NCBI GenBank assembly: GCA_036874045.1
Contig: CM072337.1
Coordinates: forward strand, 5,828,001-5,892,000
Reading direction: 5' to 3'
DNA: 64,000 nt
Source: Cymodocea nodosa
Lineage: Eukaryota > Streptophyta > Magnoliopsida > Alismatales > Cymodoceaceae
The notes under the pieces are model-generated. The model was given only the letters and a program-made list of their open reading frames with translations, was not told the DNA's origin and searched no databases. A program made the position numbers and the translations under genes. This document shows positions 9,399-64,000 of the stretch, one piece after another (position 1 is the stretch's first letter; every line of letters starts with the position of its first letter).

Positions 9399-9419
9399 CT
9401 GTTGTTAGGGATTGAGAAG
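9399..9419 (+). other. Primer-binding-site-like sequence of E1
   Basis: Directly after the LTR end, CTGTTGTTAGGGATTGAGAA resembles the CCGTTGCCGGGGATTG core of the primer-binding sites of Athila/Tat elements. The equivalent site of E5 (46575-46590, minus strand, TCGTTGCTAGAGATT) is at the same place. The expected TGG start of the site is not preserved in either copy, so the exact LTR/PBS border is uncertain by a few bases. Confidence 0.6.
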
Positions 9420-9492
9420 CCAAGCAACTGTGAGTGTTGTTTTGTTTTAATTTCAGAGGGAGCGTTGTGTTTCCTTTTATATAATTGAGAAT

Positions 9493-9888
9493 ATGACATA
9501 TACTTATACCCAAAGATTGCTAAAACTTGTAGTTAGCATATGTGAATTCTACAACAGGGAAGGGCATGACATTGCTAATTGTTTGAAATTGAGACATTTG
9601 CAAATGGTTAGATCACATGAATAACAAATGAAAATCTTATAGTTTACCCAACTAATGGTCAGTTTAGAACAAGTAATATGTTGAGAGACAAGGAAGTTTA
9701 GGATAGGTATGATAGACTTGAGCATAGTTTAGAGCAAAACTTAGACAAGCTAGAATGATACAAATATTAGTAACAAGAAGTCAACTAACTAAATTATAGG
9801 GAAGATTATACAAAACCTAAACTCGATATCATCTATGAAACTGAGAAAACCAAAATCAAAATTAATCCTCTCTAAGGAAGAGAGCGAA
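9493..9888 (+). pseudogene. 5' gag ORF of E1, zinc knuckle without capsid
   Basis: The ATG at 9493 lies about 75 bp after the PBS. About 17 residues later comes CEFYNREGHDIANC (9541-9582), a CCHC zinc knuckle with its second Cys changed to Tyr. A following stretch (VRSHE-stop-QMKI) matches E5. There is no capsid domain between PBS and knuckle. E5 has the same arrangement with ATG at 46503, so this is shared rather than a one-off deletion. Zinc knuckles bind the genomic RNA in gag particles. The frame is broken by TAA and TAG codons and shifts, and the region down to 9888 corresponds to the compressed coiled-coil part of E5. The capsid domain of this element family is found instead near the 3' end (see 53407 and 61064). 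Confidence 0.65.
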
Positions 9889-12182: not shown

Positions 12183-12200
12183 AGTTAAGTATGGGGAAAG
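12183..12200 (+). other. Polypurine tract of E1
   Basis: AGTTAAGTATGGGGAAAG directly before the 3' LTR. The E7 equivalent (56428-56445, minus) reads AGTTAAGTATGGGGGAAG. It is preceded by a decayed TTTGCTA..TAGCAAA stem-loop. It would prime plus-strand DNA synthesis. Confidence 0.75.
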
Positions 12201-14213
12201 TCTTTAAAATGAAAAAGTACATAATATTAATAGTTAAATAATGGTTAATTGCATTATATTTAGCTTATTATTTTAGAATTAAGCCATTATGTTATAATTG
12301 CATGATTATATGCCTTAATTAAAGAATGTGCATAATTCCAGTAAATTAGCATTAATGAAGTATATTTTTGAACTATCGATGAGTTATAGGTTTCTTAATT
12401 CCTAAGTATTTGAAATGTCTATTATTTCAGAGATTTTTATTTTAGATACTAGATAGTTGTGTTTTAAATGCTTAAAGAGTATTTTGTTATTGTTTTAAGG
12501 ACACATGTCATGACCTGGAAACTTAACTTAAGTTGTCTTTCGAAAGGTTAGAGGTTAACTATCTGAAATGTGTTTAAGCATTGGATAGTTATGTTTTCAA
12601 AGTATCCAAAATACCCTTTTACAGGTTTAAAAGTGAAAATTTATTACTTGCAAATTCGTAAAGTTACTAAGGATATGAAACCTCATAAAGTTTTAGTTAA
12701 CTTTACGGATCCTTGTGAACTTACAGCACTAAAGTTATGAATCCTCGTAAAGTTAGAATTATGTATGTACGAATTTAAATGTTTTATTATATCATGTGAG
12801 TTGCACATGTTTTATATTAAGTCTATTGAGTTAACCCTTAAGTCAATGAAGTTAGTCTGTTGAGTTACACTAACTCCACGGACCAGTTATTTTCTAACAT
12901 GCCACTATTAGCAGTTGTAGAAAATAGAAAATTTGAAGGAAAACCATGATTGCACGTATCACATAGGAATTAACTCATGGAATGAAGAAGAAATTATCAT
13001 CGTAGATATGAATGAAGGAAATCCAACCGATCATTTAAGTAGAAGCAGTTACTAATGAAAGAAATATAAAAAAAGAGGAGAAAAATGAAGAAGGGTGTGA
13101 AGGTGGAGAATTGTGTTAATTGTTGGAAGCATCGGAAGTTCCTTGAAACTCCACAACACCATCACAATCACTAAGCATCGGAGGTCTATGAGGATACTTT
13201 TCAAATGTTAGGTCGATTCCGAGCCAAATACGATGACTGACAATCACTATGAGGAGTGATCACATCATAAAAAGGAAAATCATTTTCACTAAGCATTGAC
13301 TCATATCTCAAGAGATCGTAATGCTTCTAACCTTGGTTTCAAGTTGATACCAATATACTGAAGAGGAGATCAACTTACAAGTCTCGATTCGTAATTCTAT
13401 AGGGAGAGGAGGCATGACTATAAGTGATTAGGTTTTCAATGGTGTAATCTCATCGCATGTAGTGATAGAAGTTCTTATTGTCGATAGAGAATTTTTACAT
13501 TTCACCTTTCGTTCATCTTCAAGAATATATCAAAACAAAAATACCAAAAACTAATTATCTGCGTTTATAGTTATCTGTGTTGTATTGTTTATTTTGTATC
13601 ATGATTAATTTTATCATTGTCAATATTGTGAATGTTTCATATTTACTTGATTTAGAAAATAGAAAGTAGTTTTATTAATTACTAAAATTGATTCATACAG
13701 AATACTCAAAAATCTTAATGGTTACTATTCAAAATATCTAAATGTTAGTATTGATTAATGATAAATCTCAGATTAACTAATATTAAAAAGTTTAATTAAT
13801 GTTATTTACATTCTGTAAAACCACCTAATAGATGGCTGAATTCTTTTGTGAATAGCAACAACTTAATTGAAAATTACTAAGTAGGCTCGTGGAGTTAACT
13901 TAAGTCCACAAGGATAGTCCATTGAGTTAATTGTAACTCTACGAACTAAATTCGTTGAGTTAACTATAAATCAATAGAGAGCTTAATTGAACATATATAA
14001 AACTTTAGTCATAAAAATCAAAATAGTTCATTATTCTTACTCATTCTTTGTGAGATTGACCTGTAGTTGCACACAAATACAATAGACACTATGCACTTGT
14101 AGTTAAAATATAAATTGGACTTAATAGCTAATTTGTGTGAAAAGTTGTTTGTTTACTTCTAAAAGAATTTATTAATATAAGCATAAAAATGAATCAAACA
14201 AGTTTTCTCAATA
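12201..14213 (+). mobile_element. 3' LTR of Athila-like E1
   Basis: 2.0-kb LTR starting TCTTTAAAATGAAAAAGTAC right after the PPT and ending near CAAGTTTTCTCAATA. It is collinear with the E1 5' LTR copies, with the TATA box at 13065-13072. I find no matching target-site duplication with the bases before 4374. ORF-free apart from chance short frames. Confidence 0.8.
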
Positions 14214-44494: not shown

Positions 44495-45086
44495 GAATTC
44501 TAATTGATTTAGCATTCTCTTCTAAATATATATAATGATGGCATAAAGTAAAACTTAACCCTTTTATGTTAGTCATAGTTCATCCTATTGCTTCTTTATA
44601 TGTCTTTACTATATCTTTTAATTTAGATATTTGATCTTCTTTTAAATCTGATGCAATAATGATTGGATAAGTTTATTCTTCTTCCAGAAATATATATGTT
44701 AATTTAAGAGGTAAAGGTTTTAAATCTAAGTGTTGACCATCAGAAGCTAAAGCTCCTAATTTAACATTTTTGTCTTCAATATTAAACTCTTATTAGTCTC
44801 CTTCTATGCCTATGTTTAAGTCTCCTCAATCACTTCTAAATTTTCAATATTTAATTACCTATTTAATTCTTCTTAAATCACATCTTCTAACATATCTCCT
44901 TCATCCTCTAGAAAGTCTACAATATATAAGGACATTTCTAACTACTCATCCCTTTCTAGTTTAAAAATATTTAATTGAGTAATCCTCATTACCATATGCT
45001 AATTTCATCATTCCATTTTTATGGTTTATAATAGCTCCTAATGTTGCTAGAAATGATCTTCTCAAAATTAAAGATGTATCATGATT
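44495..45086 (-). pseudogene. RT N-terminus and PR-RT linker (E5)
   Basis: Minus strand: a decayed LILRRSFLATLGAI protease end, MMKLAYGNED, an acidic linker with SLYIVDFLEDEGDML, and LGALASDGQHLDLKPLPLKL, then TYIFLEEE and AIGWTMTNIKGL just before L1 interrupts. Collinear with E1 10240-10830. Several stops. Confidence 0.75.
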
Positions 45087-45431
45087 CTAATGCTTAATTT
45101 GTTGGGAATCCAAAACAACAATATCAACTGGATAGATGAAGTTCTTTACTTTAATTAAGACATCTTCTATTTTTTCTCTAGGGTATCTTACACTTCTATC
45201 TGCTAATTGAATGATAGTCCTAGTAGGAATTAAGCATTCTAATCCTAAGGATACAAATATATCATAAGGCATAATATTTGTACCTGTAGTTAGGTCTATT
45301 AAAATTCTTTTTAACGTGGTATTACCTATTGTGCATGATATAACTAGAATTCCTAGATTAGATAACTTTTTAGGAATTTGTGTCAAAAATAGAGAACTAC
45401 TTTGCTTAGCTAAAAAGACTTTTCTTAACAC
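45087..45431 (-). pseudogene. Aspartic protease of Athila-like E5
   Basis: Open for 114 codons: LRKVFLAKQSSSLFLTQIPK, KLSNLGILVISCTIGNT, then the active-site stretch LIDLTTGTNIMPYDIFVSLG, LECLIPTRTIIQLADRS and KVKNFIYPVDIVVLD. Retropepsin pattern of Athila/Tat elements. The catalytic Asp is there, but the family's LGAS after it reads LTTG, so it is probably inactive. It would process gag-pol. It follows the gag ORF by a TAG-containing linker and is better kept than the E1 copy. Confidence 0.85.
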
Positions 45432-46503
45432 TTTTTGTTCCCTTTTCTAGTACATCAATCCTTAAGAAATTTAGCACAAGGTGGCATTTTCTACAATAAA
45501 TCTAACAAAGGAATGTTAACCTGTACTTTTTCAAAAAATTTCTAATTTTTTCTTGTTTTTCAGGAAATATTTGTTTTAATCTTTCAAGATAGGGCGCTAA
45601 TGATTGTGATTTAAAAGATTCTTTTTCTTTCGTTTCATTCTTTTGATCATTTTTAGTTTCATTTTCAAATTTAGATTTTTCTTCATTGATTTCTAAGTTT
45701 TCAGACATTTCATGTTCTTTTTCATTTTGATTTTTGTTCTTACTTATCTCTATTTTGTTTTCTTTTTGAGTTCTTGGTGGCACATAAGTTTTAGATCTTA
45801 ATGTTATACATACATCTTCTAGATTTTCATTACTTTTATGATGTTCTTGTATTACCATTTCATTTTTATGATTTTGATTTTTAATTATTTCCAAATTTTC
45901 TTCTATTAAATTACATTTATCAATTCCTATTTTATTAGTATTTTCTTTTATCTTTATGTTTTACAGATTATGCAAATCTTCAATATTGAAATTTTCATTT
46001 GTGTTCTCAAGTTGCATAACTTGAAATTTCATTGTAAATTCATCTAGTGCTTTTAGCTTTCTTTTCAGATCATCTAATCTCATTGCATTCAATTTTTGAT
46101 CAATTTTCATTATGGTTTTCTTAGTTTCATAGATGATATCAATTTTAGATTCTGAATAATTTTCCTTATAGTTTATTTGGTTGACTTCTTGTTGATAATA
46201 CATGTACTGTTCTAGTTTGTCTAAGTTTTATTCTAAACTGTGCTCAAGTCTATCATACCCATCACAAACTTCCTTATCACTTGACATATTACTTGTTCTA
46301 AATTGACTATTAGTTGAGTAAACTATAGGATTCTCATACTCAGTTCTATTATATTGGATATAATTCATTTGTTGTTCATGTGATCTAACCATTTGCAATC
46401 ATCTCAATTTCAAATAATCAATAATGTCATGATCTTCTAAATTACAAAATTCACATATGCTAACTACAGGTTTCAGCAATCTTTAAGCATAAGCATATGC
46501 CAT
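45432..46503 (-). pseudogene. 5' gag ORF of E5, zinc knuckle without capsid
   Basis: ATG at 46503 about 75 bp after the PBS: MAYAYA-stop-RLLKPVVS, then ICEFCNLEDHDIIDYLKLR, a CCHC knuckle whose last Cys reads Tyr (about 46413-46454). Then come coiled-coil stretches open at 46203-45961 (KIDIIYETKKTIMKIDQKLN; LKRKLKALDEFTMKFQVMQ) and 45894-45502 (ENLEDVCITLRSKTYVPPRT; SLAPYLERLKQIFPEKQEKI). CITLRS and PYLERL match the Athila gag C-terminus (ITLRSGK; P-PERL). There is no FELKS/LPxFHGLxxED capsid region before the knuckle, although that region opens canonical Athila gag. E1 shares this absence. Confidence 0.75.
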
Positions 46504-46574: not shown

Positions 46575-46590
46575 CAATCTCTAGCAACGA
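46575..46590 (-). other. Primer-binding-site-like sequence of E5
   Basis: Minus strand TCGTTGCTAGAGATTGG directly after the LTR end CTAACA. It resembles the Athila/Tat PBS core (GCCGTTGCCGGGGATT) with substitutions. Confidence 0.6.
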
Positions 46591-48606
46591 TGTTAGAAAA
46601 ACTTGTTTGGTTTATTTTGTTTACTTATATATTAATAATTTCTTTTAGAAGTAAACAAATAATTTTCACAAATTAGATATTAAATCTAATTTATTTTTAA
46701 CTACAAGTGCATAGTGTCTATTATATTTGTCTGTAAGTACAAGTCAATCCAACTGAGATTGAGTAAAAATTACATACTATTTTGATTTTTGTAACCAGAG
46801 TTTCATGTGTGTTAAATTATGCATTCCATTGACTTACTACTAACTCAACGGACTTAGTTTGTGGAGTTATAGTTAACTCAACAGACTATCCCCATAGACT
46901 TAAGTTAACTCCACGAGCCTAACTAGTAATTTCCAATTAAGTTTTTGCTATTCATAGAGGAATTCGACCATCCATTGGGTGATTCCACAGAATGTAAATA
47001 ACATCAATTAAGCTTTTAATGTTAGTTAATCTGATATTTATCATTAATCAACACTAACATTCAGATATTTCAAACAATAACCATAAGGTTTTGGGTATTT
47101 TGCACAAATCAATTTCAATAATCACTAAAACTATTTCCTATGTTTTGAATCAAATAAATACAATACATTCACAATAATGACAATAATAACATTAATCACA
47201 ATACAAAACAAATAATACAACACATAAATGCTAACTATAAACAAGATAATTAGTTTTGTTTTTAGGATTTTTGTTTTGATATGTTCCTAAAGATAAAGGA
47301 AAGGTGAAATGTAGAAATTCTCTATTAATAGTAAAAACTTCTATCACTACATGCGACGCGATTACACCACTGAAAACTTAATCACTTACAATCATGCCTC
47401 CTCTCCCTATAGAATCGTAAATTGAGACTTGTAAGTTGATCACCTCTTCAGTATATTGGCATCAACCCGAAACCAAAGGTAGAAACTTTACGATCTCTTA
47501 AGAGATGAGTTAGCGCTTGGTGAAAATTGCTTCCCTTCCTATGACATGATCACTCCTCATAGTGGTTGTCAGTCACCGTGTTTTGCTCAAAATCAACTTG
47601 ACATCCAAAAAGAATCCTCACAGACCTTCGATGGTTGGTGATTGGTGGTGGTGTTGTGGAGCTTCAGGGAATTTTAGATACTTCCTGTAGTTAGCGTGGT
47701 TCTCCACACTCTCTACACCTTTCTTTATTCTTCTCCTCTTCTTTTTATATTTCTTTTAGTAGTAACTACTTTTACCTAAATGATTGATTGGATTTTCTTC
47801 ATTTGTATCAACGACGATGATTTCTTCTTCATTCTACGATTTAAATCCTGCGTAATACATGCAATCATGGTTTTACTTCAAATTTCCTATTTCTGCAACT
47901 GCTTCACATTAAATATTAGAAAATAATTAGTCTATCAAGTTAGTGTAACTCAATGGACTTACTCCATTGACTTAACTATTAACTCAGCGAACTTCCTTTG
48001 TTGGGTAAAGCTTGACTCAATGAACTTGATATAAAATAATAATATAAAACATGTGCAACTCACATGACATAAAGAAATGCTTATAATTTAAAACAAGTTT
48101 CCAATGAAAAAATGATTTTTTAGATACTTACAACTGTAAGTATCTGAAACTTATATACATTTCGGATAGTTAGCATCCAACCTTCTAAAGGATAACTTAA
48201 GTCATGTTTTAAGGTCACGAGAAGTGTCCTACTGGAAACAAATATCACAGTTAAATTCAACATGTGCATATTCCTAACTTAACGAGTTTTTACAACTTTA
48301 AACTTGTAACTCAATAAACTTACCTTGTTGAGTTAACTGTAACTCAATGAGTTGTTACTATGCATTTGTACATGATAAATATATGCAAATAAAACATATC
48401 ATGCTTAACACTATAAAACCACACTTAAATCAGGTTTTCAATCTTCCATAAATGATATTTAATTAACGTTAATTCCTTGAAATTATGTACATTCTGTAAT
48501 TAAGGCATACAATCGTACAATTGTAACATAATAGCTTAATTCTCATATGATAAGTTAAATATTATGCAATTAACCATTACTTAACTATTAATATTATGTA
48601 CTTTTT
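46591..48606 (-). mobile_element. 5' LTR of Athila-like E5
   Basis: Runs from 48606 (missing about 12 terminal bases) down to TGTTAGAAAAACTTG at 46591, read on plus. TATA box at 47742-47749 (minus). Collinear with 54319-56427 and 12201-14213. Contains several GTTGAGTTA/TAACTCAA palindromes and the AATTTGTATT-GCAAGTGCATAGTGT block. It abuts the integrase of E6 at 48607, so E5 entered E6 there. Confidence 0.82.
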
Positions 48607-49596
48607 GAGATATCAACAAATAGGAAGTAAATCAAAGAGGAATATGATGCCTTTGAATCCTATTGTTGAGGTTGAAATCTTTGATGCGTGGGGAATAGAT
48701 TTTATGGGTCAATTTCCTACATCTAATCGGTTTAATTATATATTGTTGGGGGTGAATTATGTATCTAAGTAGATAGAAGCTATTCTTACAAAAATTAATG
48801 ACAATAAAGTGGTAATACATTTTATAAGAACTCATATAATTGCTAGATTTGGAATACCTAAAGCTATTATTAGTGATAGAGGAACTCATTTCTGTAATAA
48901 AAGTTTGAAGCCTTAATGAATAAATATTGAGTAAATTACAAAATTGCAATATCATATCATCTGCAAATAAGTAGACAAGTAGAAAGTACAAACAAACAAA
49001 TTAAGTTAATCTTAGAAAAAGTAGTAAACCCTACTAGAAAAGATTGGGTTAATAAACTAATAGATGCACTGTTGGCTTATAGAATAGCTTATAAAACAAG
49101 CCTAGGTATGCCACCTTTTAGAATAGTATATGGAAAAAGTTGTCACTTATTAGTTGAAATTAAACATAAAGCTTATTTGGCACTGAAAACTCTAAACATT
49201 AATTTAAATTAAGTTGTTAAAAATAGAAAGATACAATTAATTGAGTTAGAAGAATTTAGGAATGAAACTTATTCAAAAACTATAACAGAAAAAGAGAAGA
49301 TGAAGTTGTGGCAAGACAAGAAAATTATTCCAAAAACTTTTGAAATAAGACAAGAAGTATATTTTTACATGACTAGACTTCATAACCATTTAGAGAAATT
49401 AAGATCTAGATGAATTGGACCTTAGATAATTCGAAACATTTATTCCTATGGAGCTATTAAAATAGAAAATCCTAAAAATCAGAATATATTTAAAGTGAAT
49501 GGACAAAGACTTAGACCTATTTTGAAATTTTCAAAAAGTTCCTTTGGAATGATAGAAGAAATAAGAATAGAGGACTACTTAAGTCCTATTAAGTAA
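48607..49596 (+). pseudogene. Ty3 integrase of Athila-like E6
   Basis: Reads SKRNMMPLNPIVEVEIFDAW, GIDFMGQFPTSNRFNYILLG, VNYVSK-stop-IEAI, IIARFGIPKAIISDRGTHFC, then frameshifted YHPQTS/GQVEST-type sequence, NPTRKDWVNKLIDALLAYRI, AYKTSLGMPPFRIVYGKSCH and a C-terminal part GAIKIENPKNQNIFKVNGQR. Athila/Tat integrase. The first Asp (MDFMG-type GIDFMG) and the second (ISDRG) are kept; the third-acid region is frameshifted. The zinc-binding N-terminus is cut off by E5. Stops include TAG for Trp/Gln. The PTTP-like ORF follows in the same orientation, as in E5. Confidence 0.85.
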
Positions 49597-50389
49597 ATAT
49601 AAATATCTATAAGTCACAAAAAGAAATTTATATATTATTATTATTTTAATGGTTTAATCGAGAAAAGTCTTTGGTTTAACTAAAATAGATAATCTAAACT
49701 TGTAATTTGTTTGGTAAAACTGAGAGAAACCAAGAGTTTTACCAAAGTAGAGAAAAAGAGAAAAAAACTTATTATAAAAAGAAAAAAATTTCGGTAGCAC
49801 CAAAAGGATCCATTGGTCTGACCGAAGCTAAAAGAGAATTTTTATATATTAAGTAAAAGTGTCAATTTAATCGAAACATAGTAGCAGTTTAACGGAGTGT
49901 TTAAGAAAATTTTTTCAGTTCTACCGAGGAAGAACATGGTCTGACCGAAATTAAGAAAAGAGAAAAATCAAGAGTCGATCTGACCAGAGATTTTTCAATT
50001 TTGACTGAATAAAAATTATTATATTAGCATTATTTTATTAGTTATAACTTTATAGAAAGTCCATTGAGTTAAGCTTAACTCAATGAACTTACTCTATTGA
50101 GTCTAGGATAAGTCCATGAACTTACTCTATTGAGTTAACTATAACTTTACGAAGTACTAGAGGTTAATCCACAAACTAAGTCCATAGAGTTAACTATAAC
50201 TCCACGGACAGGTAAGTGAGAGTAGTGAAAGATTGCGTGGAAATAACCTGATTACCCGCCAAAAACTTAGAGTTTATTTAAACAAAAATTTAGGATTTGG
50301 GGCATTATCCATAGAAATCATTTAGTACTTAGAGTAGAAAAGATCAAGCCTATTCTGTTCCGTTCCATTTCATAACACCACGAAGAAGA
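49597..50389 (+). other. IN-PTTP spacer of E6
   Basis: Non-coding. 49650-49990 has paired GGTCTGACCGAA and TCAGTTCTACCGA-type motifs. 50055-50210 has TTGAGTTAAGCTTAACTCAA (a 20-base perfect palindrome) and similar. A weak TATA-like TTTATTTAAAC lies at 50276-50286. The same order of features is seen in E5. Confidence 0.6.
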
Positions 50390-52561
50390 AGGTGGTACAA
50401 AACTTGTGGGATTCAATTGACATGACAAGGTTCCTTAGAGAATCAGAAGAGTGGCATTCAAGGTAGAAAATCTGGAATACCACTAGAGAGAAGGAGCTAG
50501 AACAGGTAGAAGCGAACATTTTTCATTTTACAAAGAGACTTGTAGATTTGAATGTTAGAATACTTGCGATAATGGAAACAAGAATACGAGTGGCAATAGA
50601 GACAACTGTTAATAGGGAGAAAAGAATTAGACTTGATAATGAAGTTGCCTTAGAGCTCATCAAACGAAAGTCAAGACTATGGTTTGTAAGAATTATAGCT
50701 ATTCATGTGATGATTCAACAAAGGAAAGAATAAGAGAGAGAATAGATAGAAGCATCTGCAGCAGTCGGGACCTTCATATCAACCACAACAAGGAGATAAA
50801 GTTTTAATGGTAGGTCCAAGATCTAAAGAAGAGGAAAAAGAATTAGAAGAGTTAGTGAAACTCTAGAAAGATCAAGATGTTAATGAAGCCCTAGCATGAG
50901 TTAAAGCACTCATTCTATTTGACAGAATCTAGAAGAGAAAGATCCAAGAAAGAGTAAGAGTAAAATATAAAATCAAATTAGAACAACATCAAGCAACAAC
51001 TAGAGTACTAGTTGCTAAAGAATCTGAGTTTGGTCCTTCGAGACTAGTGAATATCAAAGAAGAGGAGCTAGTACCTATGGCTTGAGGGCCTAAAGAGCCC
51101 AGTTTTGTTGATTTAATATCAGATGAGGAGGAAGAAGAATAGGTACAATTAATTAGAAGAAGAAAAGGAAAAGAAATAGTGTTTGAGGCTTAAGAAGAAA
51201 TAAAAGTTGAGCCTGTAGTATTTACAGTAGGGCATAAAGAGCCCATTTTTGTAGATTTATTATCAGAAGAAGAAGAGCTAGTGTAGCAGTAGAGAGGAGA
51301 AGAAAAACAAGCTGAAAAGGAGCTACAGCCTGAAAAATTTAAAATAGAAAATATGGTAGAACTTGCTGTGCTCGAAACTCCATCCCAATTTGCAAGTGAT
51401 TCAGAAAAGATAGTAATAATGTAGATTGGTTGAGAGTAGGAAGAAGAAAGAGAAGAAGTTGAACAAAAAAACATAGAAATAGAAGAAAAGAATTCAACAG
51501 ATTCCACTAAAGAGGGAGAAACTCTTCAGCAATTTATGAAAAATTTAAAGGATAAGAGTGTGGAAAGTTCTACTAGCTCTCCACCATAATTAGGAATTGA
51601 AGGGCAGGAGTCTCCAAATGGATTTTCTTCTTAACAACAAGTTCAGCAATTCGAAGAAGAGAATAAAGAATAAACCCCATAGGAGAAACAAATTCAAATT
51701 CCTGACCCAACTAAAGCAACAATTCTGAATGTAATTTATTTCTAGAGTCATGAAGCATACAACAAATATCAAGAAATAAAGGGATATAATATTATTTATA
51801 GTAAGCCAGTAAATTAGACTAGAATGGAAGACATTAGAGAGTTATTTGAATTCCAAGGCCTACTAAATATATTTCCAATGACAAAAGGGCATGCAATTTA
51901 TGAAAACCTAGTGCCCTATTTTTATGCAAATCTAAGGGAAGTAGAAGGAACATTAACTTCAAATGTGGAGCAAGCTGATATTTAGATAACACATGAGCTT
52001 CTCCACAACTTATTTGGATTAATAAATGAAGGAATTGAAATTCTTAAAGAAACAACTGCAGTAGAGTGGACTGAACAAGAAATAAAATAGTGCATAGCCA
52101 GTGACTATTGTGTGTCATTACTTAATAGAATGAAGTACTTAAATGGAATGGCATACATGGTGGCAACTATACTAGTGAAGACTATTTATCAAAGACAATG
52201 TCACAATATAGAACTGAGTCAATTTGTAAAATGGGCCACATATATAGTTGTCAACAGAATTCAGGTGAATTGGTCAAAAGTAATAATCTCCAACCTCAAA
52301 GTAGTAAAGAAGAAATTATTTTATGGAGATTTGATTCCACTACTGATGGTGGAAGCTATTGATTTCACAAAATGGACATCAAAATGGATGAGATCTATGG
52401 CTATTTCAGTGAAAGAATACATAAATTATGTTTCTGCTACTACTACTAAGATTGTAGGACCTTCTAGAGAATCTGTATTAGCTATGGAACATATTAATCA
52501 ACTAGAACAACAATTAGAAAAACTCTAGAAAGAAGTAGATGAATTAAGAAATAGGGATTAA
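50390..52561 (+). pseudogene. PTTP-like ORF, full-length copy (E6)
   Basis: Longest copy, about 720 codons allowing for stops and shifts. N part: WDSIDMTRFLRESEEWHS, ETRIRVAIETTVNREKRI, LIKRKSRLWFV. Middle: acidic, Glu-rich repeats (51.0-51.6 kb), with VEPVVFTVGHKEPIFVDLLS. C part: SHEAYNKYQEIKGYNIIYS, MEDIRELFEFQGLL, ENLVPYFYANLREVEGTL, LLHNLFGLINEGIEIL, LNRMKYLNGMAYMVATIL, FVKWATYIVVNRIQVNW and a coiled-coil end INQLEQQLEKL (open 52112-52528). The motif order of the C part fits the 'putative plant transposon protein' family of Athila-type elements (recognised from memory). Role unknown. No signal peptide or membrane segment is evident, so 'env' would be a positional name only. Most stops are TAG where E5, E7 or context have Gln. 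Confidence 0.72.
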
Positions 52562-53123
52562 ATCTATTATTCATCTACCTATAATGTAAAATGCCAAATT
52601 GTATGTAATTTAGACAATTTATATATATGCTCTATGAGAATCAATATGTTTCTGAAATGTTATGATTGTGAATGACCAATTTAATTCAAAGTTCTATTGT
52701 AATTTGTTAAGTGTTAACTCAACGAAGTTAGTTTGTGGAGTTAACCTTAACTCCATGAAGTTAGTAATAGAATATATAGTCGCTCCGTTGAGTTAACTGT
52801 AACTCAACAAAGTTAGTCCATGAAGTTAGCAAATAGAAGCTTGAAGCTAGTCCATTGAGTTAGTTGTAACTCAACGAGGTTAGTTCATTAAGTAAAGAAC
52901 AGTAACCGAGGTCACTTCGCTGAGTTAACTGTAACTCAACGAAGTTAGTTCGTGGAGTTAGTTGAACAGTTATTCTTTTTTCCACGAACGAAACTTTGTA
53001 GGTTTAGCGGTTACTAAAATTTGAAAATTAGAAGTAGAACACATATCCATAAAAATAGGAACCATACTGCACATTACAAGACACATTCTTGCAATGAGAT
53101 TCATCTACATTATGGACATGTAT
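52562..53123 (+). other. PTTP-capsid spacer of E6 with palindromes
   Basis: No gene. 52705-52960 contains at least six GTTAACTCAACGAAGTTAG/ CGTTGAGTTA-type units; CTGAGTTAACTGTAACTCAA at 52919 onward is a hairpin. The rest, TAGAACACATATCCATAAAA through GACACATTCTTGCAATGAGA, is conserved in E7 at 61350-61440 and leads to the TATA box. No LTR ends or PBS are visible, so the capsid ORF does not simply start a new element here. Confidence 0.6.
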
Positions 53124-53131
53124 TATAAATA
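53124..53131 (+). promoter_or_regulatory. TATA box of the capsid unit (E6)
   Basis: TATAAATA in GGACATGTATTATAAATACA. E7 has the same box at 61336-61343 (minus) in GGACGTGCATTATAAATATA. It lies about 135 bp before the conserved splice donor in both copies. Confidence 0.65.
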
Positions 53132-53267
53132 CAAGAATAGAATGTTATTTACTGGTTACCAGCAATTGTGGAAAGATGAAAGAACTCATTGGGGGAATTG
53201 GAAGGAGAAGCAGTTACTTTAACTTTATACATTAACAATTATTTATTTAGAGTAAAGCTTCAAACTG

Positions 53268-53382
53268 GTATGTAATTAATTTTCTGCAATTTACTATATG
53301 TTAAGAGTTTATGAGAAAATTGACTCATTCTCCTAACACTAAATGATTAGTAAGAATACCTACACAAGATTATTCAACATAG
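53268..53382 (+). other. Candidate 5'-leader intron of the capsid unit (E6)
   Basis: Donor CAAACTG before GTATGTAATTAATTTTCTGC and acceptor TTATTCAACATAG before AAATG. E7 keeps both sites exactly (61204 to 61089, minus, 116 bp). The intron separates the TATA box from the capsid ATG, so it would lie in the 5' leader. Both ends match plant consensus; splicing is inferred. Confidence 0.5.
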
Positions 53383-53406
53383 AAATGTACTGAAATATTT
53401 TCTGAA

Positions 53407-54318
53407 ATGGACTTAAACAAAATCCTTAGGGGTGTGGCTAACCTTTCTTTAAAAGAAAATAAAGACATGGCTGCTCCAATAGAAAAACCATTAGGGGAAA
53501 TTCTATATCCTGAACTAGTTGATGAACCTTCATGTATTCGATTGCCAAACTTTGAGGGAGATAGGTTTGAATTGAAATCTAATTATATTAGTCAATTACC
53601 ACACTTTCATGGATTAGAAAGAGAATTTGCCTATTATTTCCTCAGAGAATTAATGAAGTTTGTCAAATGATGAAAATGTCAAACATGAGTATTGACACTA
53701 TCAAACATAGATATATCTCTTTTGCTTTAAAAGACAGCTAAGAGATAGTTATATACTCTATCGCTTGATTCAATTTCTGTATGGATTGAATTTTACTCTA
53801 TTTTTCTAGAAAAATATTATCTAACATATCAAACAATTAAAAGGAAAAAAAATATATTAATGTGTAGCCAAAAATAGAGAGAATCATTTTGGAAATATTT
53901 TGAACGATTTAAAGATTTACTAACTCAATGTTCACATCATGCAATGAGTAAAGCACAATTAGTAAGTATAATTTATGAAGGTATAGATACTTTAACTAAA
54001 TATTTATTAGAATCTACCTGTTAGAAAGGATTTTTGAAATTGTGTAGTAAAGAAGCTTGGGCTTACTTAGAAAATTTTACAAAAATAACTACTCAATGGG
54101 AAAATTTGGCTGAAGCTATTACAGATAAGAAAATATTACCTAAGGGAATGTATGAAATAAATTCGAATACAATGCTTAAAGTTAAATTAACTAAGTTAAC
54201 AAAGAAAATAGAAGAGTTATCATTAAATCAAAAACTAGCAGAAAAGAATGCAAATATTAATGACTTAGATGTTATTTATGCTAGAAACTAGAAAGATAAC
54301 TGTTAATTCTTACAACCC
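53407..54318 (+). pseudogene. Athila-type capsid gag, displaced downstream of PTTP (E6)
   Basis: ATG at 53407: MDLNKILRGVANLSLKENKD, then VDEPSCIRLPNFEGDRFELK, SNYISQLPHFHGLERE. A frameshift near 53650 gives EFNEVCQMMKMSNMS; then FALKD, ISVWIEFYSIFLEKYYL, and the open part 54034-54291 (LKLCSKEAWAYLENFTKITT, KVKLTKLTKKIEELSLNQKL). FELKS-x-LPxFHGLxxE and FALKDxAxxWLY are the capsid (Retrotrans_gag) signatures of Athila elements, which normally follow the 5' LTR. Here the ORF sits after IN and PTTP with its own TATA box and leader intron. It is cut at 54318 by the LTR of E7, inside the segment that in E7 reads NSYNPN-stop-RN. Confidence 0.82.
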
Positions 54319-56427
54319 TGTTTGAAGAAATTTGTTTATATATATTAATAAATTCTTTTAGGGTAAACAAACAACTTTTCACATAAATTAGATATTAAGT
54401 CTAATTTGTACTTTTAATTGCAAGTGCACAGTGTATATTGTATTTGTGTACAAGTACAAGTCGATCTCACAAAGATTGAGTAAGAATTAAGTATCATTTT
54501 GATTTTTATATTAGAGTTTATATGTGTTTAATTAAGCTCCTCTACTTTGATTTACAGTTAACTCAATGGATTTAGTTTGTGGAGTTATAGTTAACTTAAC
54601 GAACTATCCTCATGGACTTAAGTTAACTCTATGAACCTACCTAGTAACTTCCAGTTAAATGCTACTATTTATAGAGGAATTTGGCCATCCATTGGGCGAT
54701 TTTACAGAATGTAAATAACATTAATTAAGTTTTTTAATGTTAGTTAATCTGAGATTTATCATTAATCAACCCTAACATTCAGATATTTTGAATAGTAACC
54801 ATTAAGATTTTTTAGTATTCTATACGAATCAATTTCAATAATCTATAAAACTATTTTCTATTTTTTGAATCAACTAAACATAAAACATTTAGAATACTAA
54901 CAATGATAACATTAATCATGATACAAAACAAACAATACAACACATAAATACTAAATGTAGACACTAATAATTAGTTTTTTGGTATTTTTGTTTTGATACG
55001 TTCCTAAAGTTGAACGAAAGATGAAATGTAAAAATTCTCTATTGACACTAAAAACTTTCGTCATTACATGCGATGTGATTACAACATTGAAAACTTAATC
55101 ACTTACAATCTTGCCTCCTCTTCCTATAAAATCGTAAACCAAGACTTGTAAGTTGATCTCCTCTTTAGTATATTGACATCAACCTGAAATCAAGGCTAGA
55201 AGCTTTATGATCTCCTAAGATATGAGTTAGCGCTTAATGAAAATGACTTCCCTTCCTACGATGTGATCACTCCTCATAATGGTTGTCAGTCACCGTGTTT
55301 GGCTTAGAATCGACCCGACATCCAAAAAGTATCCTTGCAGACCTTTGATGGTTGGTGATTTTGGTGGTGTTGTGGAGCTTCAGGGAACTTCTAATGCTTC
55401 CTGCAGTTAGCGCAGTCCTCCACCTTCACACACACACTCTTCGTCTTTCTCCTCTTCTTTCATATTTCTTTCAGTAGTAATTGCTTCTGCCTAAATGATC
55501 GATTGGATTTCCTTCATTCATGTCAACGATGGTAATTTCTTCTTCATTCCATGAGTTAATTCCTACATGATACGTGCAATTGTGGTTTTCCTTCGAATTT
55601 CTTATTTCTGCAACTACTACAGTGGCATTTTAGAAAATAACTAGTCCATAGAGTTAGTGTAACTCAACGGACTTACTTTGTTGACTTAACTATAAAGCAC
55701 ATGCAATAAAGAAATAATTTATAAGCTTATAACACTAACATAATGTGTTACCTTAGTGTATATTTAAGTAACTCAACACATATAGTTATGCTAATTTAAC
55801 AAGTTAAATATGTGCAGCTCACATGACATAATAAAACATTTAATTTTACCACATGCATAATTCTAACTTAACGAGTTCAAACATTTTAAATAGTTACAAA
55901 CTATAAGTATCTAAAACTTATATGTAGTTCGGATAGTTATCACTTAACCTTTTGAAAGATAACTGAAGTTTCTAGATCACGACACGTGTCTTCAATAAGT
56001 TTTATGATAAAAAGGTATTTTGGATACTTGCAAACCTAACTATCCGATGCTTAGACACATTTTGAATAGTTAACATTTAACTTACCGAAAATCCACTTAA
56101 GTCATGTATTAAGGTTTCAACACGTGTACTTCAAGAAATAATAAAATATTCTTTAAGCGTTTAAAACATAACTGTTTGATACATAAAATGTAACTCTTCG
56201 AAGTAATAGATATTTCAGATACTTAGGAATTACAATGCCTATAACCCACCAACATTTCAAAAATGTACTTAATTAACACTAATTCCCTGAAATTATGTAG
56301 ATTCTTTCATTAAGGCATATAATCGTGCAATTATAACATAATGACTTAATTCTCAAATGATAAGCTAAATATTATGCAATTAAACATTATTTAACCGTTA
56401 ATATTATGCACTTTTTCATTCTAAATA
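54319..56427 (-). mobile_element. 3' LTR of Athila-like E7
   Basis: 2.1 kb. Read on plus it starts TGTTTGAAGAAATTTG at 54319 and ends CATTCTAAATA at 56427, next to the PPT. It lies in the E6 gag right after AACCC (54314-54318). In the uninterrupted E7 gag the same AACCC is followed by TAATTAG, so AACCC is the candidate 5-bp target duplication; the partner lies beyond 64000. The internal region lies to the right, so on the minus strand this is the 3' LTR. Confidence 0.85.
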
Positions 56428-56445
56428 CTTCCCCCATACTTAACT
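56428..56445 (-). other. Polypurine tract of E7 with upstream stem-loop
   Basis: Minus strand AGTTAAGTATGGGGGAAG directly before the LTR, preceded by the hairpin TTTGCTAATGGACTAGCAAA. L1 has the same pair (hairpin plus AAGTGTGGGGG). Confidence 0.8.
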
Positions 56446-58500
56446 TTTGCTAGTCCATTAGCAAACTCATTAATCTAATTAACAAGTCTTTCTAAAGTGC
56501 TAAAACTATTTCTTCATTTTGTATATTCAAAATACTAAAATTAGATTAATATAAATATATTCTATATAATCGAGTAATCTAATTTAACTTTATTTTTCTT
56601 CTCCAACCTACAAATATATTTCAAACATATGTAAATTACGTACAAAATATACTAGCATCACATAGGTGGCAGTTATATTATCAAATTTTTCTTTCAAACA
56701 TTTGTTATCCTAAATTTTCCAATATAATTTCTAGAATAAATTTCAACTACATATGAATCAAAACACAATTCAACTCAATATGATTAAAATAAGAAGAATA
56801 ATGAATTGTATCTTAAATAAACAACTTCAAAAGTTTAATTCTAGATTCATACTTTAGTAATCATAAATAATAGAGAATATACTCAATTCAAAAGATATCT
56901 ATATCTTCACAAAACACTTTTATCTTTTTAGAATATTATATGCATATTTTTACTTTAAAAGTTAACTTGAAAAGTTTGAATCATACAAGAGCTTTCTAGT
57001 GTACCCATGTATTGAGCTTTCAATCAACAATCCTAGATCTGATCAAGATCTTAGGTTGCCAGATTTAAAGAGTCCTTTTTCAGGTCAACAATCCTTGCAT
57101 ACCTATCTACTCTAGTACAAAAGGCTCATGATCAAATAAATCAATAAACTCTCAAAGTTTTTCTCTTTTTTTCTTTTCTTTATAGTATATATATATATTT
57201 CATTAATACAAATGCAATAAAACACAAATCTCATATAATCCTACTTCTACAATCTACTGAAAATTTGAATCCATATCAATAAGCTTATACTTTTTCTGTA
57301 GTTTAATAAGATTTACACATAAATCATTCTACAAGTTTAATCAATCAAATTAAATGTATCATTGATCATATGTATTTCATTTCATCCAAAAATTAACATT
57401 TTAGCTCTTTTAGGATTCAGATAATTTCCTGAGTTTCAGTTAAGCATTCTGATTTCTTTTTAAAATTGTAAAACTGTTAAACTTATAAAATTCTGTAATA
57501 AGATTTACACATAAATCATTCTACAAGTTTAATCAATCAAATTAAATGTATCATTGATCATATGTATTTCATTTCATCCAAAAATTAACATTTTAGCTCT
57601 TTTAGGATTCAGATAATTTCCTGAGTTTCAGTTAAGCATTCTGATTTCTTTTTAAAATTGTAAAACTGTTAAACTTATAAAATTCTGTAAAAACATAAGA
57701 TACTATATCCAGATTTGTATTAATAGTAAAATTTTGTAGCATCTTATATAAAATTCTAAATATAACATTTAGGTAGTTACAATTCTCAAAAAATTTTCAT
57801 TTTCAGCTATCAAAAGATTTCAGATAATTTTTAGTAGGTTATAGGAAATTTTGAAAAGTTACAGCAAAATTCATAAAAATTTTTCAGTTTCCATAGAAAT
57901 TTACAACACAATTCTAATTCCTCTATTTAACAAGATTACTTGGATTTTAATCTAATTACCTCCCCTCATACCTACATTTTGCATTGTCCTCAATGTAAAA
58001 GATTTATAGTAAATACAATAAATGTTAGTAGGTATGAATAATGTTTCGTTGACTTAGCACCTAACTCAATAAATTAAATTCATTGAGTTAATGAATAACT
58101 CCACGAACTATATTGAAATGTAAATTTAGGATAAGTAATCAATTACATACCTTATTCTTTTATATCTCCTTTAATATCTTCCAACTTTTGATTCTGAAAA
58201 ACTTTTCATTCACAAATAAAAGTAAAATATATAACAAAATAACAACTAATAACAAAACATAAATTGTTAAATTAGTACCTTATGTGGAACCCAAACTCCT
58301 ATGTCTTTAGTGGCTCACAAGTAAGCCAGTTGGTTTGGTAGAACATATACAAACAAACTGGTTTGATATTTTGTTTTTTCCTTTTTTTTCTTTTTCTTGT
58401 AAGATAAATAAAATAGAAACTTAAAAGTTCTTTTTTCTAAAAATAAATGTAGAATATGCACAACATTAAAAATACAAAATCACAATTTAAGAACATGATT
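56446..58500 (-). other. 3' UTR of E7 with a perfect 192-bp duplication
   Basis: Non-coding. 56446-57410 is collinear with E1 11171-12182. 57308-57499 and 57500-57691 are an essentially identical 192-bp direct duplication. At about 57960-58005 the minus strand reads ACATTGAGGACAATGCAAAA, then GTAGGTATGAGGGGAGG, the GAGGACAATG-N-GGGGGAGG signature that in Athila/Tat elements lies before the 3' LTR, so a second PPT-like site sits 1.5 kb upstream of the used one. 58050-58110 has a palindromic GTTGAGTTA-type pair. I see no gene. Confidence 0.65.
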
Positions 58501-58534
58501 GAAAAGTAGTGACAAATGAAATAAACGTGTCAGT

Positions 58535-59522
58535 CTAAGCAAAACCTTTAGGCATAATTCTTCTTGCTATTAATTCTATTTTAATGTAGAATTGAAATAC
58601 AAAAAGGGATCCTCTTCTATTCCAAGATAATGTAGTTGTTCCTATTTCTACATATATTTCAATATATTCCTCTTCCCACTTCCATTCATTTAGATCTTTC
58701 ATAATCCATATTTGAAATTTCATTAATTCATCCCACCATCTTACTAGTCATAAAGTAGAAACATCATATTCATTATACCACTATCCTAATTGAATTTTAT
58801 CATGTTCTATAGAGGGTCGTTCAGCTATATCATTAGGTATAGGTAATATTTCTATAAAGTTACCATCATAACTGTCTATGCTCACTATGTATAAATCAGA
58901 TCTAAATGCAATTGATATATCCATAACTAGATATATATATCCATCAAGTGTGACATGCATATTGTTAACTAATGCTTTCTCTCCTAGATATATCATAATA
59001 GTTTTATCCCAAGATTTATTTAGAAAATTATACACAGTTAAACATAGATCATCATCCCAATTTCCAATTGGTCTTCAATAATATAATTTTTCAGAAATGG
59101 TCGAATTTTTATTAGAAAATGTTAAAGCTGGCTCACAATTTTTAGTTGGTACTTCAAATCTATTAGGCCTTCCTATATTCCATTCTTCTCTAGCAATAGG
59201 ATTTCTAATCAAAATATTGGGTAATAGAATAGCATACCTTGGTTTGGTTCTGTAAATAATCAATCCTTCATCTATCCCCATAATATGATCTATTCCTTCT
59301 AATGTAATGGGTGAAATTTTAGTAGTTTCTTCTATGTTCAGATATTCATAACTAATTAAACTACAATTAAATGGCTTCCATAAAAATCCATCTCGAATAT
59401 TAGTCATCTTTGTAACTTGTAGTCTATGAAAATATTTTTCTCTAACACATTCTTTAATTTGTCTTAACACAATATAATTTGCATAGATCTTTAGTTGATA
59501 AGTTATTCAATACTTCCCTTAG
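58535..59522 (-). pseudogene. F-box/F-box-associated-domain-like ORF in E7
   Basis: About 320 codons with two or three stops. Minus order: LREVLNNLSTKDLCKLYCV (F-box-like, about 59520-59465), CVREKYFHRLQVTK, then the open frame to 59075 with GIDEGLIIYRTKPRY and ILIRNPIAREEWNIGRP; open 59035-58781 with NNMHVTLDGYIYLVMDISI, IVSIDSYDGNFIEILPIP; open 58723-58535 with FQIWIMKDLNEWKWEEEY. The order GL-x-x-NPxTxxW, VxxxGxxYWL, FDxxxExFxxIxxP, xIWxMKDxxEW is that of plant F-box-associated (FBA) domains, the substrate-recognition part of SCF ubiquitin ligases. It lies between the capsid gag and the PPT, same strand. A 63-bp candidate intron precedes it. It could be a captured host gene or a host pseudogene hit by E7. 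Assignment is by pattern only. Confidence 0.55.
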
Positions 59523-59585
59523 CTGTATTTCAACAACATAAACAAAATTTAAAGAGAGATAAAACTAACATAGCTACTTACATAC
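59523..59585 (-). other. Candidate intron upstream of the F-box-like ORF
   Basis: Minus strand: CTACGAAG before GTATGTAAGTAGC, and GTTGTTGAAATACAG before CTAAGGGAAGT. It is 63 bp with good plant donor and acceptor sequences, joining a leader to the F-box-like start. Short for a plant intron, so tentative. Confidence 0.35.
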
Positions 59586-59817
59586 CTTCGTAGAGTTAGG
59601 TCATTACTTAACGGACTAAGTTCGTTGAGTTAAGTAATAACTCTATGGTAGTACTAACTACAATTAAACTTTCATTTTTTTCTTTTTATAATTTCTACTT
59701 ACTATATTATACATAGTAACAATTGTGCTACTTCAATTATAATTAAACTTACACTTTTTTTTTCTTTTCTAATTTTTTACTTACTATATTATACATAATT
59801 ACTTCAGTTATACTACT
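59586..59817 (-). other. Gag to F-box spacer (E7)
   Basis: Short non-coding gap. It holds ACTTAACGGACTAAGTTCGT next to TTGAGTTAAGTAATAACTC, another copy of the recurring palindromic motif, and a tract with two ATTATACATA repeats. Confidence 0.5.
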
Positions 59818-61064
59818 TCATTCAGTTTCCCTCCCAAAGGAGATGTCAATTTCATTAATAGTTTTGTTCACAAGGTTAGGTACTACTTGAATTAGCAATC
59901 CTCCAGTAGGTCTAACTTCTATTGATTCCTTCTATCTAGGGGGTATATTTCTATTCATATTTTGATTGGCAATACTTCCAAATACATGATCTAGATGATT
60001 GTTTAATTATTTAATTATCTTTTCTAATTTCTCTATTCTAGATTCTTGTTCAATTAATGCTTCATAACTTATATTTTATCATTTATATTTTCTCCTCCCT
60101 AGAAATTGTTTTTTCTCCAAGATAAATTTAGGTGATTTCTCTAATTAGGGTTATAAGAATTTCCAAAGTTATCTTTTTGGTTTCTAGCATAAATAATATC
60201 GAAATCATTAATATTTGTATTCTTTTCTGCTAGTTTTTGATTTAATGATAACTCCTCTATTTTCTTTGTTAGCTTAGTTAATTTAACTTCAAGCATAGTA
60301 CTTGAATCTATTTCATGCATTCCCCTTGGTAATATTCTTTTATTTGTAATAGCTTCAATCGAGTTTTTCCACTAAGTAGTTCTTTTTGCAAAGTTTTCTA
60401 AGTATACCCATGCTTCTTCACTACATAGTTTTAAAAATTCATTCTGATAAGTAGATTCTAATAACGATTTAGTTGAAACAACTATGCTTTCATAAATTAT
60501 ACCGATTAATTTTTCTTTACTCATTGCATGATATGGATATTAAGTCAATAAATCTTTAAATCATTCAAAATATTTCCAGAATGATTCTCCCTATTTTTAG
60601 CTACAAATTAATATTTTCTTTTTCTTTTTAATCGTTTGATGTATTAGATAATATTTTTCTAGAAAAATAGAGTAAAATTCAATCCAAGCAGAAATTGAAT
60701 CAAGCGACAAAGTATATAACCATCTCTTAGCTATGTCTTTTAAAGCAAAAGGAATATATCTAAGTTTAATAGCATCAATACTCATGTTCGACATTTTCAT
60801 CATTTAACAAACTTCATTAAATTCTTTAAGGAAATAATAAACATCTTCTCTTTCTAATCCATGAAAGTGTGGCAATTGACTAATATAATTAGATTTTAGT
60901 TCAAAGCTATCACCCTCAAAGTTTGGCAATTTAATACATGAAGGTTCATCAACTAATTCAGGATACAAAATTTCCTCTAATGGTTTTTCTACTAGTGCAG
61001 GCATATCTTTGTTCTCCTTTAAAGAAAGGTTAGCTACACCCCTAAGGATTTCGTTAAAGTCCAA
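59818..61064 (-). pseudogene. Athila-type capsid gag, displaced downstream of PTTP (E7)
   Basis: ATG at 61064: MDFNEILRGVANLSLKENKD, VDEPSCIKLPNFEGDSFELK, SNYISQLPHFHGLEREDVYY; frameshift near 60800; then open 60803-60597 (MMKMSNMSIDAIKLRYIPFA, LKDIAKRWLYTLSLDSISAW). Further: MSKEKLIGIIYESI, LKLCSEEAWVYLENF, MLEVKLTKLTKKIEELSLNQ, NFGNSYNPN and a coiled-coil ESRIEKLEKIIK ending FGRETE before TGA at 59818-59820. About 415 codons, shorter than a canonical Athila gag, and with no zinc knuckle between the capsid and the SYNPN block. This is the more complete capsid copy and shows that the capsid ORF here ends without running into protease. It has the same order and leader as E6, with roughly 85% protein identity by eye, so the two are independent old copies. 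Confidence 0.85.
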
Positions 61065-61088
61065 TTCAGAAAATATTTCAATATACTT

Positions 61089-61204
61089 CTATGTTGAATA
61101 ATCCTATGTAGGTATTCTTACTAATTGTTTAGTGCTAGGAGAATGAGTCCATGTGCTCATAAACTCTTAACATAAAATAAGATAGTAGAATATTAATTAC
61201 ATAC
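61089..61204 (-). other. Candidate 5'-leader intron of the capsid unit (E7)
   Basis: Same donor (CAAACTG before GTATGTAATTAATATTC) and acceptor (TTATTCAACATAG) as E6 53268-53382, 116 bp, 25 bp before the ATG. Confidence 0.5.
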
Positions 61205-61335
61205 CAGTTTGAAGCTTTATATTCAATAAATAGTTATTGACGGATGAAGTTGAATCAATTGCTTCTTCCAGTTCCTCAACAAATTCTCTTTCCTCTTTTT
61301 AATTGCTAGTAACCAATAAACAACATTCTGTTCTA

Positions 61336-61343
61336 TATTTATA
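61336..61343 (-). promoter_or_regulatory. TATA box of the capsid unit (E7)
   Basis: TATAAATA on the minus strand in GCATTATAAATATAG, 132 bp before the conserved splice donor. Counterpart of 53124-53131. Confidence 0.65.
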
Positions 61344-62810: not shown

Positions 62811-63274
62811 TTCATTAAGTTAACACTTAGCAAATTTTCCTAAGAAATTTACTTCTCATCTTAACTTCTATATTTTTTTTCCTACATACTATCAACTTAA
62901 ATAAAGTTAAATACACTACATTAATGCAGTGTTCCAATTTAAAATTATTTAAATTTGAACATTATATGCATATTTAACTTACAATTCATTTGCTATTATG
63001 TAGAATTTAGAGTTTCTGCAATTTGTAAACATATTCAGGTGTTTCTTAAATAATCATGCCTTTAAGCACATCTTCCATAAAATTTTAATTTCTTTTAAAA
63101 CAATCTTGTAATGCTTCAAACATATATATAGATTAGAATTCCAATACAGCTTTAAATCATTCACTCACAAACATTAATTCAGAAGCATCTTGTTTTTCAA
63201 ACATTCATATATATAAATAATTTACAATTACATACAATCAGATATTTTTTAATACAAGTAGATAAATAATACAT
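62811..63274 (-). other. PTTP-capsid spacer of E7, distal part
   Basis: Non-coding, AT-rich. Collinear with 52562-52720 of E6 but longer. No gene and no LTR ends seen. Confidence 0.5.
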
Positions 63275-64000
63275 TTAATATCTATTCCTTAATTCATCTA
63301 CTTCCTTCTAAAGCTTTTCTAATTGTTGCTCTAATTGATTTATCCATTCTACAGCTCCTATAATTTTTCTAGAAGGTCCAACAATCCTAGTAGCAGTAGT
63401 AGTAGCATAAGTTCTGTATTCCCTCATTGAAATGACTCTAAATCTCATCCTTTTAGATGTCCATTTCGTAAAGTCTAATCCTTCCACCATCAGTAGTGGA
63501 ATCAGATCTTCATAAAATAATTTTTTCTTTATAGATTTGAGCTTGGCGATAAATACTTTGCACCAATTAACTTGAATTCTGTTCATAACTGCATATGTGG
63601 CCCATTTCACAAATTGACTAACTTCAATGTTGTGGCATTGTCTTTGATAAACAATCTTTACCAGTATAGTTTATATCATGTGTACCTTTCCATTTAAGTA
63701 CTTCATTTTGTTAAGTATTGACACACGAGGGTCATTGACTATGCACTGTTTAATTTCCTACTCAGCTCATTCTACTACAATTGTTTCTTCTAGAATTTCT
63801 ACTCCTTCATTTCTCAATCCAAATATGTTGTAGAGAAGCTCAGGTGTTATCTGAATATTAACTTCTTCCACGTTTACAATTAAATTTCCTTCTCCCTCTC
63901 TCAAATTTGCATAAAAATAGGGCACTAAATTTTCATAAACTACATGCCCTTTTTGCTTTGGAATAATTTCCGATAAGCCTTGGAATTCAAAGAATTTTCT
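63275..64000 (-). pseudogene. PTTP-like ORF, C-terminal part (E7)
   Basis: Runs off the window. Minus order: FFEFQGLSEIIPKQKGHVVY, ENLVPYFYANLREGEGNLIV, ITPELLYNIFGLRNEGVEIL, LNKMKYLNGKVHMI, then the open frame 63610-63308: KWATYAVMNRIQVNWCKVFI, KKKLFYEDLIPLLMVEGLDF, TKWTSKRMRFRVISMREY and INQLEQQLEKL, ending VDELRNRY before TAA at 63275-63277. Clearly the same protein as E6 50390-52561. It lies upstream of the capsid gag on the same strand, repeating the E6 order. Fewer stops than the other copies. Function unknown. Confidence 0.75.

Follow-up and report, generated by a model that had tools for sequence, protein, structure and literature searches.

Whether a long terminal repeat (LTR) retroelement can carry its capsid gene behind pol is the question raised by a 64,000-nucleotide stretch of Cymodocea nodosa (CM072337.1, positions 5,828,001 to 5,892,000; G000:C5:5828001-5892000 in a genome of 374.6 Mb), hereafter the window, which on self-comparison is crowded with nested element copies, among them four Athila-like Ty3/gypsy copies (E1, E5, E6 and E7). 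Retroelements are generally thought to need gag ahead of pol for an excess of Gag, and a capsid at the far 3' end, with the zinc finger alone at the usual place, breaks the standard gene order. The best explanation, which we regard as quite probable on comparison of the copies, is a high-copy Athila-like family with gag divided between two genes. The 5' open reading frame (ORF) following the LTR and primer-binding site (PBS) would open with a nucleocapsid-type zinc knuckle (ZnF) and lead into protease (PR), reverse transcriptase (RT), RNase H (RH) and integrase (IN); a second gag gene, past the 3' ORF PTTP, would hold the N-terminus, the capsid and the C-terminal tail, having lost the knuckle, and would be followed by an F-box-type gene and the 3' LTR.

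Both parts of gag in one transposition unit

With a query running from the LTR end through the knuckle ORF, 40 copies were scored, the likest of 5397 candidates at first look, and in all of them the LTR end leads straight into the knuckle ORF with no capsid between, each match starting no later than base 11 of the query and reaching 1250 or 1251 (the query's own locus is one of the 40, and the other 39 are 94-95% identical to it). The Athila trait of a single gag-pol ORF that opens with capsid is absent here, the capsid lying behind PTTP. A 5' gag placed shortly after the PBS and devoid of capsid had been described for E1 and E5 by an earlier, sequence-only reading, and this was borne out: in E1 an ATG at 46503 lies 74 bp past a PBS-like site, the knuckle (CEFC) begins at codon 17 as judged by eye, and a stop stands at codon 7; in E5 a PBS-like site at about 9394-9411 precedes an ATG at about 9493; no capsid match was obtained at either place. 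The knuckle reads CEFCNSEGHDISDY in a C12 copy and YEFCNSKGHGISNC in a C6 copy, in either case with one metal position out of four altered, and a search with the 5' knuckle ORF for relatives elsewhere gave none among 20 candidates. Among the 40 young 5' ends that were scored, six (C2:11814342, 12029687, 12227277, 12318578, 12440254 and 12649474) lie on the + strand within 0.84 Mb, possibly as a segmental duplication or an insertion hot spot.

Evidence that the two parts travel together comes from C6:8636979-8654320, an element found through LTR matches 13 kb apart and read with separate piece references, in which both LTRs, a target-site duplication (TSD), a PBS and all parts stand in one run. 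The order, in a single direction (L029/L030), is LTR, ZnF, PR, RT, IN, the stretch before PTTP, PTTP, leader, capsid, the stretch behind the capsid, F-box gene, the stretch behind the F-box gene, LTR. The LTR pair is 93.2% identical over 2149 columns, the 3' LTR terminus is AAACA, and the 5-bp TSD differs by one transition (TGCAC before the 5' LTR, TGTAC after the 3' LTR). A PBS of tRNA-Asp type, TGGCGCCGTTGC, with 1 mismatch in 14, is found at L029 2334, 7 bases behind the LTR end. Using a motif that we take to be of the tRNA-Asp type, a scan that allowed up to 3 mismatches also found sites at that limit in L012, L020 (two) and L032, and none in the other 7 of the 11 sources, the window and L017 included. 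The 3' flank is an 87% match to the protease gene of the same family (L031), which by eye continues in the 5' flank. A foreign insertion was looked for within the element and none was detected, with about 5.8-6.1 and 7.1-8.2 kb of L029 outside the coverage of the piece references. The 1.9 kb from IN to PTTP is consistent with the 2.1 kb of E6, and the PR-RT-RH-INT order of Ty3/gypsy elements is present in this family.

One transposition unit thus carries the knuckle ORF, pol, PTTP, capsid and F-box gene. The order predicted by the sequence-only reading, LTR-PBS-ZnF-PR-RT-RH-IN-PTTP-capsid-F-box-polypurine tract-LTR, is seen in this bounded element, and the check which that reading had called for, a single element with matching LTRs and a TSD that holds both parts, has therefore succeeded once. 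Three further runs show the order LTR, knuckle ORF, capsid: the C12 + copy, with an interrupted 3' end; the C19 copy, with LTRs aligned over 289 bp at 89% identity and a long unmatched stretch internally; and the C3 copy, with most of the knuckle ORF deleted. Among the copies scored or read, neither a capsid right after the PBS nor a PTTP-capsid element with LTRs of its own was found. In E7 and in the C13, C12 -, C1 and C5b copies, the stretch read stops short of the element's own 5' end, and the C14 copy is broken inside the integrase.

At the 3' end, a leader-through-capsid query gave 41 scored rows, again the likest copies (5966 candidates at first look), 39 of which start in the first 23 leader bases and extend to at least 1232 (one other starts at 135 and one spans 1-578), showing that the same non-LTR leader precedes the capsid. 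The capsid ORF proposed downstream of PTTP in E6 (+) and E7 (-) is supported by PF03732 in a sister copy (E 1.5e-18, 67 bits against a cut-off of 24), with PTTP before the capsid. The proposed lack of an LTR before it holds for E6, where no LTR match falls between PTTP and capsid, while in E7 an unrelated repeat occupies that place. The capsid of E6 is present as proposed, with its true end lost: it stops at 54331 because the 3' LTR of E7 begins there, and all but one of the 40 other capsid rows follow the query as far as 54331 or the next base.

Compared with a 454-residue Athila-type Gag of the same genome, the 3' gag is 41% identical over 244 residues. In a multiple alignment it keeps the capsid and a tail of the form NSYNPxWRNHxNLSWRNNNFQ, with a gap over the knuckle, and the pairwise alignment places a 17-residue gap a few residues differently; no CCHC knuckle is found within the capsid protein. 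Since the part behind the knuckle sits in the 3' gene, a simple cut of one gag is ruled out, and duplication followed by complementary loss would fit better. A capsid marker site occurs 2,960 times genome-wide (2647 intact and 313 with a -2 change, at no more than one mismatch; 0 in reversed controls). By domain content and copy number the 3' gag is gag-derived and widespread. Outside this genome the capsid query found 4 proteins among 626 candidates, of which the three read, P0001-P0003, still have a knuckle, whole or as a remnant, behind the capsid; a sequence search of solved structures gave one match (E 0.087), to a zinc-finger protein.

Athila elements carry between pol and the 3' LTR a sense ORF with PF20167 or PF03078; in two sister copies PTTP matches PF20167 (Transposase_32) at E 6.2e-6 and 1.1e-5, with 25.9-26.7 bits, below the cut-off of 45. 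The F-box gene between capsid and 3' LTR matches PF00646 (E 6e-10 and 2e-9; L022 1763-2275, L025 1754-2230) and was found behind 9 capsid copies, L010 being cut before it. Copia elements of this genome (L014 1695-6897, L015 7224-8099) bear a 3' ORF like Athila PTTP, at 30% identity over 122 residues in L015, and the gene therefore seems common to Copia and Gypsy.

In a second Athila-like family, which looks younger, Gag is complete, with both capsid and knuckle (L054 1-1265 with L024 303-1664; L055, L056, L057). The 454-residue Gag used as control does not stand behind an LTR: on C1 the end of an integrase (L054) lies about 0.3 kb upstream, which leaves too little room for an LTR as large as those seen here, and scans for a PBS-like site gave nothing in L054 (at 4 mismatches) or in L024 (at 3). 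At three other gag matches of this kind, the stretch 0.5-0.8 kb upstream proved to be the end of an integrase (97-98% identity), so that integrase precedes gag in all four copies read. Of the 40 integrase copies that were scored, 16 are followed by a gag among the matches listed; the spacing is 485-492 bp for 15 of these, and the remaining one, with a truncated hit, stands at 719 bp. The pairing drew on 63 of 134 gag rows, neither the integrase nor the gag list being exhaustive, and the gag search also gave further gags of about 42% identity, outside the gene-order comparison.

Start codon, leader and message of the capsid gene

The 3' gags of 32 copies (E6, E7, L010, L018, L030, L002-L008, L034-L053) were aligned, 13 of the 41 rows of the leader-capsid query being left out. 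The start formerly assigned, at 53407, is an ATG in E6 alone (1/32) and a TTG in 19 copies. The coding frame is open upstream of it to an ATG at 53311 that is present in 31 of the 32, and the gag of E7 therefore extends over 61160-59818. From 53311 to 53466 there are exactly 156 nt in 30 copies. Indel events, many of them shared by descent, number 44 in the 301 columns before ATG 53311; the 101 columns that follow it hold 1, and the 885 of the capsid 10.

How this gene is expressed admits several answers. A promoter of its own, as the sequence-only reading had it, is plausible on the evidence of a TATA-like box, TATA[AT]A[AT], which is indeed present in 30 of the 32 copies; in conservation it does not stand out, its window ranking 33rd of 140 when compared with A/T columns, below the donor-like and other windows, and the box was discarded as a specially conserved one. 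The strongest rival, which we would put somewhat below an even chance, is a subgenomic capsid message spliced from an LTR transcript, like that of the env of barley Bagy-2, for which splicing of 3' ORF messages is reported (PMC7264820). A donor-like GTATGT survives in 29 of the 32 copies and falls within one of the leader's best-conserved parts, and a T-rich tract ending in ACAG lies directly before the F-box ATG in 5 of 9. Set against this are the TATA-like box itself and the region before the capsid ATG, where the two young copies lack the stretch and no fixed acceptor is seen.

The other form of splicing, a leader intron of 115 bp with the ATG 25 bp behind it, was the one first proposed, and it is unlikely. 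Its donor block is the GTATGT just mentioned, and the AG at 53381-53382 is also kept in 29 of the 32 copies; the same AG, however, ends a CAG/TAG codon in the capsid frame. The ATG at 53311 falls in frame inside the supposed intron, 7 of the 32 copies (two of them, L038 and L045, nearly identical) have no stop between 53311 and 53466, and the length of 156 nt is kept in 30; a start such as 53467, an ATG in 29 of the 32, would be required. In the other copies, stops recur at three codons, two CAG and one CGA, a pattern that C-to-T decay would produce, though at two of the three TAG outnumbers every other codon (14 and 18 of 32).

Selection, decay and alternative readings

Less probable still is a non-autonomous family in which the 3' capsid gene has died and a different Athila family provides the capsid for particles in trans. 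A stop or a frameshift interrupts each of the 32 aligned 3' gags, and in the extract of PMC2410132 most Arabidopsis Athila elements are non-autonomous and without pol. The fixed differences speak otherwise: 14 synonymous and 3 nonsynonymous separate the group of E6, L010 and L002 from the 27 bulk copies, and 14 and 20 separate two young copies from the bulk (8 to 0 and 6 to 6, respectively, at a stricter threshold), where the nonsynonymous to synonymous opportunity is 4.2 to 4.7 and the subfamily groups were assigned by eye. Rare variants inside the bulk (61 synonymous, 185 nonsynonymous) are spread flat over codon positions (86/80/80), a mark of decay within copies. Judged by these substitutions, the 3' gag evolved under purifying selection, and intact marker sites are eight times as many as frameshifted ones. 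The -2 change, seen in 28 of the 32 aligned copies, is over-represented in this sample because the copies were chosen by likeness to E6, itself a carrier; a programmed frameshift inside the capsid was dropped, the change being a minority allele genome-wide. The -2 allele (window position 53736 in E6) is present in all three aligned subfamilies, which suggests exchange between copies or trans-complementation. That the knuckle and PTTP-capsid elements are separate and joined by nested insertion, as the nesting in the window and the missing 5' ends of E6 and E7 (the latter not closed because the stretch upstream, L009, belongs to another element with a deletion) might suggest, is contradicted by the single LTR pair and TSD of C6, by E5, which joins a knuckle-type 5' end to the capsid-type 3' end of E7 inside the window, and by the C12, C19 and C3 runs, and is so improbable that it was rejected.

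Several observations weigh against a functional, divided gag in a reordered element. The LTR pair and TSD occur together in one copy only, C6, whose 3' gag itself has the -2 change; the 3' LTR end of C19 was sought and not found, so that no target duplication was established there. Every aligned 3' gag is interrupted, as said above; in the young pair, the first 33 codons differ at 5, 5 and 3 sites for positions 1, 2 and 3, without a third-position bias, and a 15-bp difference upstream of the ATG means that no acceptor is fixed directly before it. A structure model reached a mean pLDDT of 59, too poor for use. In the second family, 24 of the 40 integrase copies have no gag among the matches listed. 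Among the gags of this genome whose order was read, none was a conventional gag-first control.

For the family with a divided gag, a route can be envisaged in which recombination placed a gag copy 3' of pol and the two copies then lost complementary parts. Athila families of Arabidopsis are documented to have recombined and to have mixed their gag, pol and env genes (extract of PMC2410132), which would offer a route for moving the capsid. The capsid would come from its own mRNA, made either from a TATA promoter inside the element or by splicing of an LTR transcript, and its amount would therefore be set apart from Pol; the independence of capsid dosage from gag-pol, already suggested by the sequence-only reading, would follow from the separate gene. 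Particles would then assemble in trans from the capsid protein and the knuckle-Pol protein. A 2.37-kb tandem duplication, 92% identical, lies at 40200-44492 of the window, inside E1 between RT pieces.

Features of the four element copies in the window (positions in the window)
Feature	Position	Strand	Remark
E5 PBS-like site after 5' LTR	9394..9411	+	by eye
E5 zinc-knuckle ORF, decayed	9422..9867	+	
E5 post-F-box region and 3' LTR, shared with E7	11168..14167	+	joined to E5 RT via internal deletion
E1 protease region and RT start	44500..45447	-	
E1 capsid-less 5' gag, zinc-knuckle ORF	45450..46503	-	start 74 bp after PBS
E1 PBS-like site, decayed tRNA-Asp type	46578..46595	-	by eye; missed in 3-mismatch scan; PBS class as in extract of PMC1142308
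E1 5' LTR	46598..48606	-	partial matches 46639-47982 and 48447-48606
E6 integrase	48605..49599	+	
E6 PTTP, Transposase_32-like 3' ORF	50873..52592	+	Pfam on sister copies
E6 TATA-like box	53125..53131	+	30/32 copies
Proposed intron	53268..53382	+	second half (from 53311) in frame with capsid
E6 3' gag (capsid)	53311..54331	+	ATG 53311; cut at 54331 by E7
E7 3' LTR, preceded by purine tract	54332..56428	-	inserted in E6
E7 F-box-type gene	58593..59494	-	F-box start missing in E7; PF00646 in sister copies
E7 3' gag: N-terminus, capsid, tail, without knuckle	59818..61160	-	to TGA
Unrelated repeat between E7 PTTP and capsid leader	61648..62804		matches 19051-20303
E7 PTTP	63248..63994	-	runs past window end

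Comparison with known elements

The Athila lineage rests on an RT/RH/INT phylogeny, and the order GAG-PROT-RT-RH-INT is used for classifying plant Ty3/gypsy elements (PMC6317226); this and the following reports are cited from extracts. In Athila, Calypso and Diaspora one ORF encodes gag-PR-RT-IN with gag first, and Diaspora and Calypso have a tRNA-Asp PBS 5 bp behind the LTR (PMC1142308). The family described here resembles Calypso and Diaspora in its tRNA-Asp PBS near the LTR (at 7 bp here), Athila4, Calypso and Diaspora in its PR-RT-RH-IN order, and Athila and Calypso in a sense ORF between pol and the 3' LTR; Diaspora gag has a CX2CX4HX4C finger, whereas the capsid here is finger-less and lies behind pol and PTTP (PMC1142308). 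Sunflower Athila 14 similarly has a PF20167-type 3' sense ORF, the Transposase_32 aORF, behind which the extract describes no capsid or F-box gene, both of which are present here (PMC11728184). Retand clusters without GAG (and, by a reference title only, BARE-2) share the lack of a capsid at the usual 5' place, while in the family studied here the capsid is retained in the same element, at its 3' end (PMC11963269). In the open-access literature, the titles and abstract openings among the matches listed contained no capsid behind pol in plant elements. Relocation of the capsid might explain some of the GAG-less calls, which amount to 159 of 8453 Ty3/gypsy elements (PMC6317226).

With a capsid behind pol, severed from its RNA-binding finger in a successful family, the need for an excess of Gag and for the linkage of Gag to nucleocapsid becomes testable. 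Altogether, it can be tentatively proposed, at slightly less than even confidence, that at least two Athila-like families in this genome gave up the gag-pol order and express a gag behind integrase independently, one of them splitting gag into capsid-only and knuckle-Pol proteins, with the Gag:Pol ratio set by separate messages and without frameshifting or stop read-through. Foamy viruses make Gag and Pol from different messages, with the ratio set by RNA; there it is Pol, not Gag, that is encoded on the spliced message, and the order stays gag-pol-env, unlike that of the family described here.

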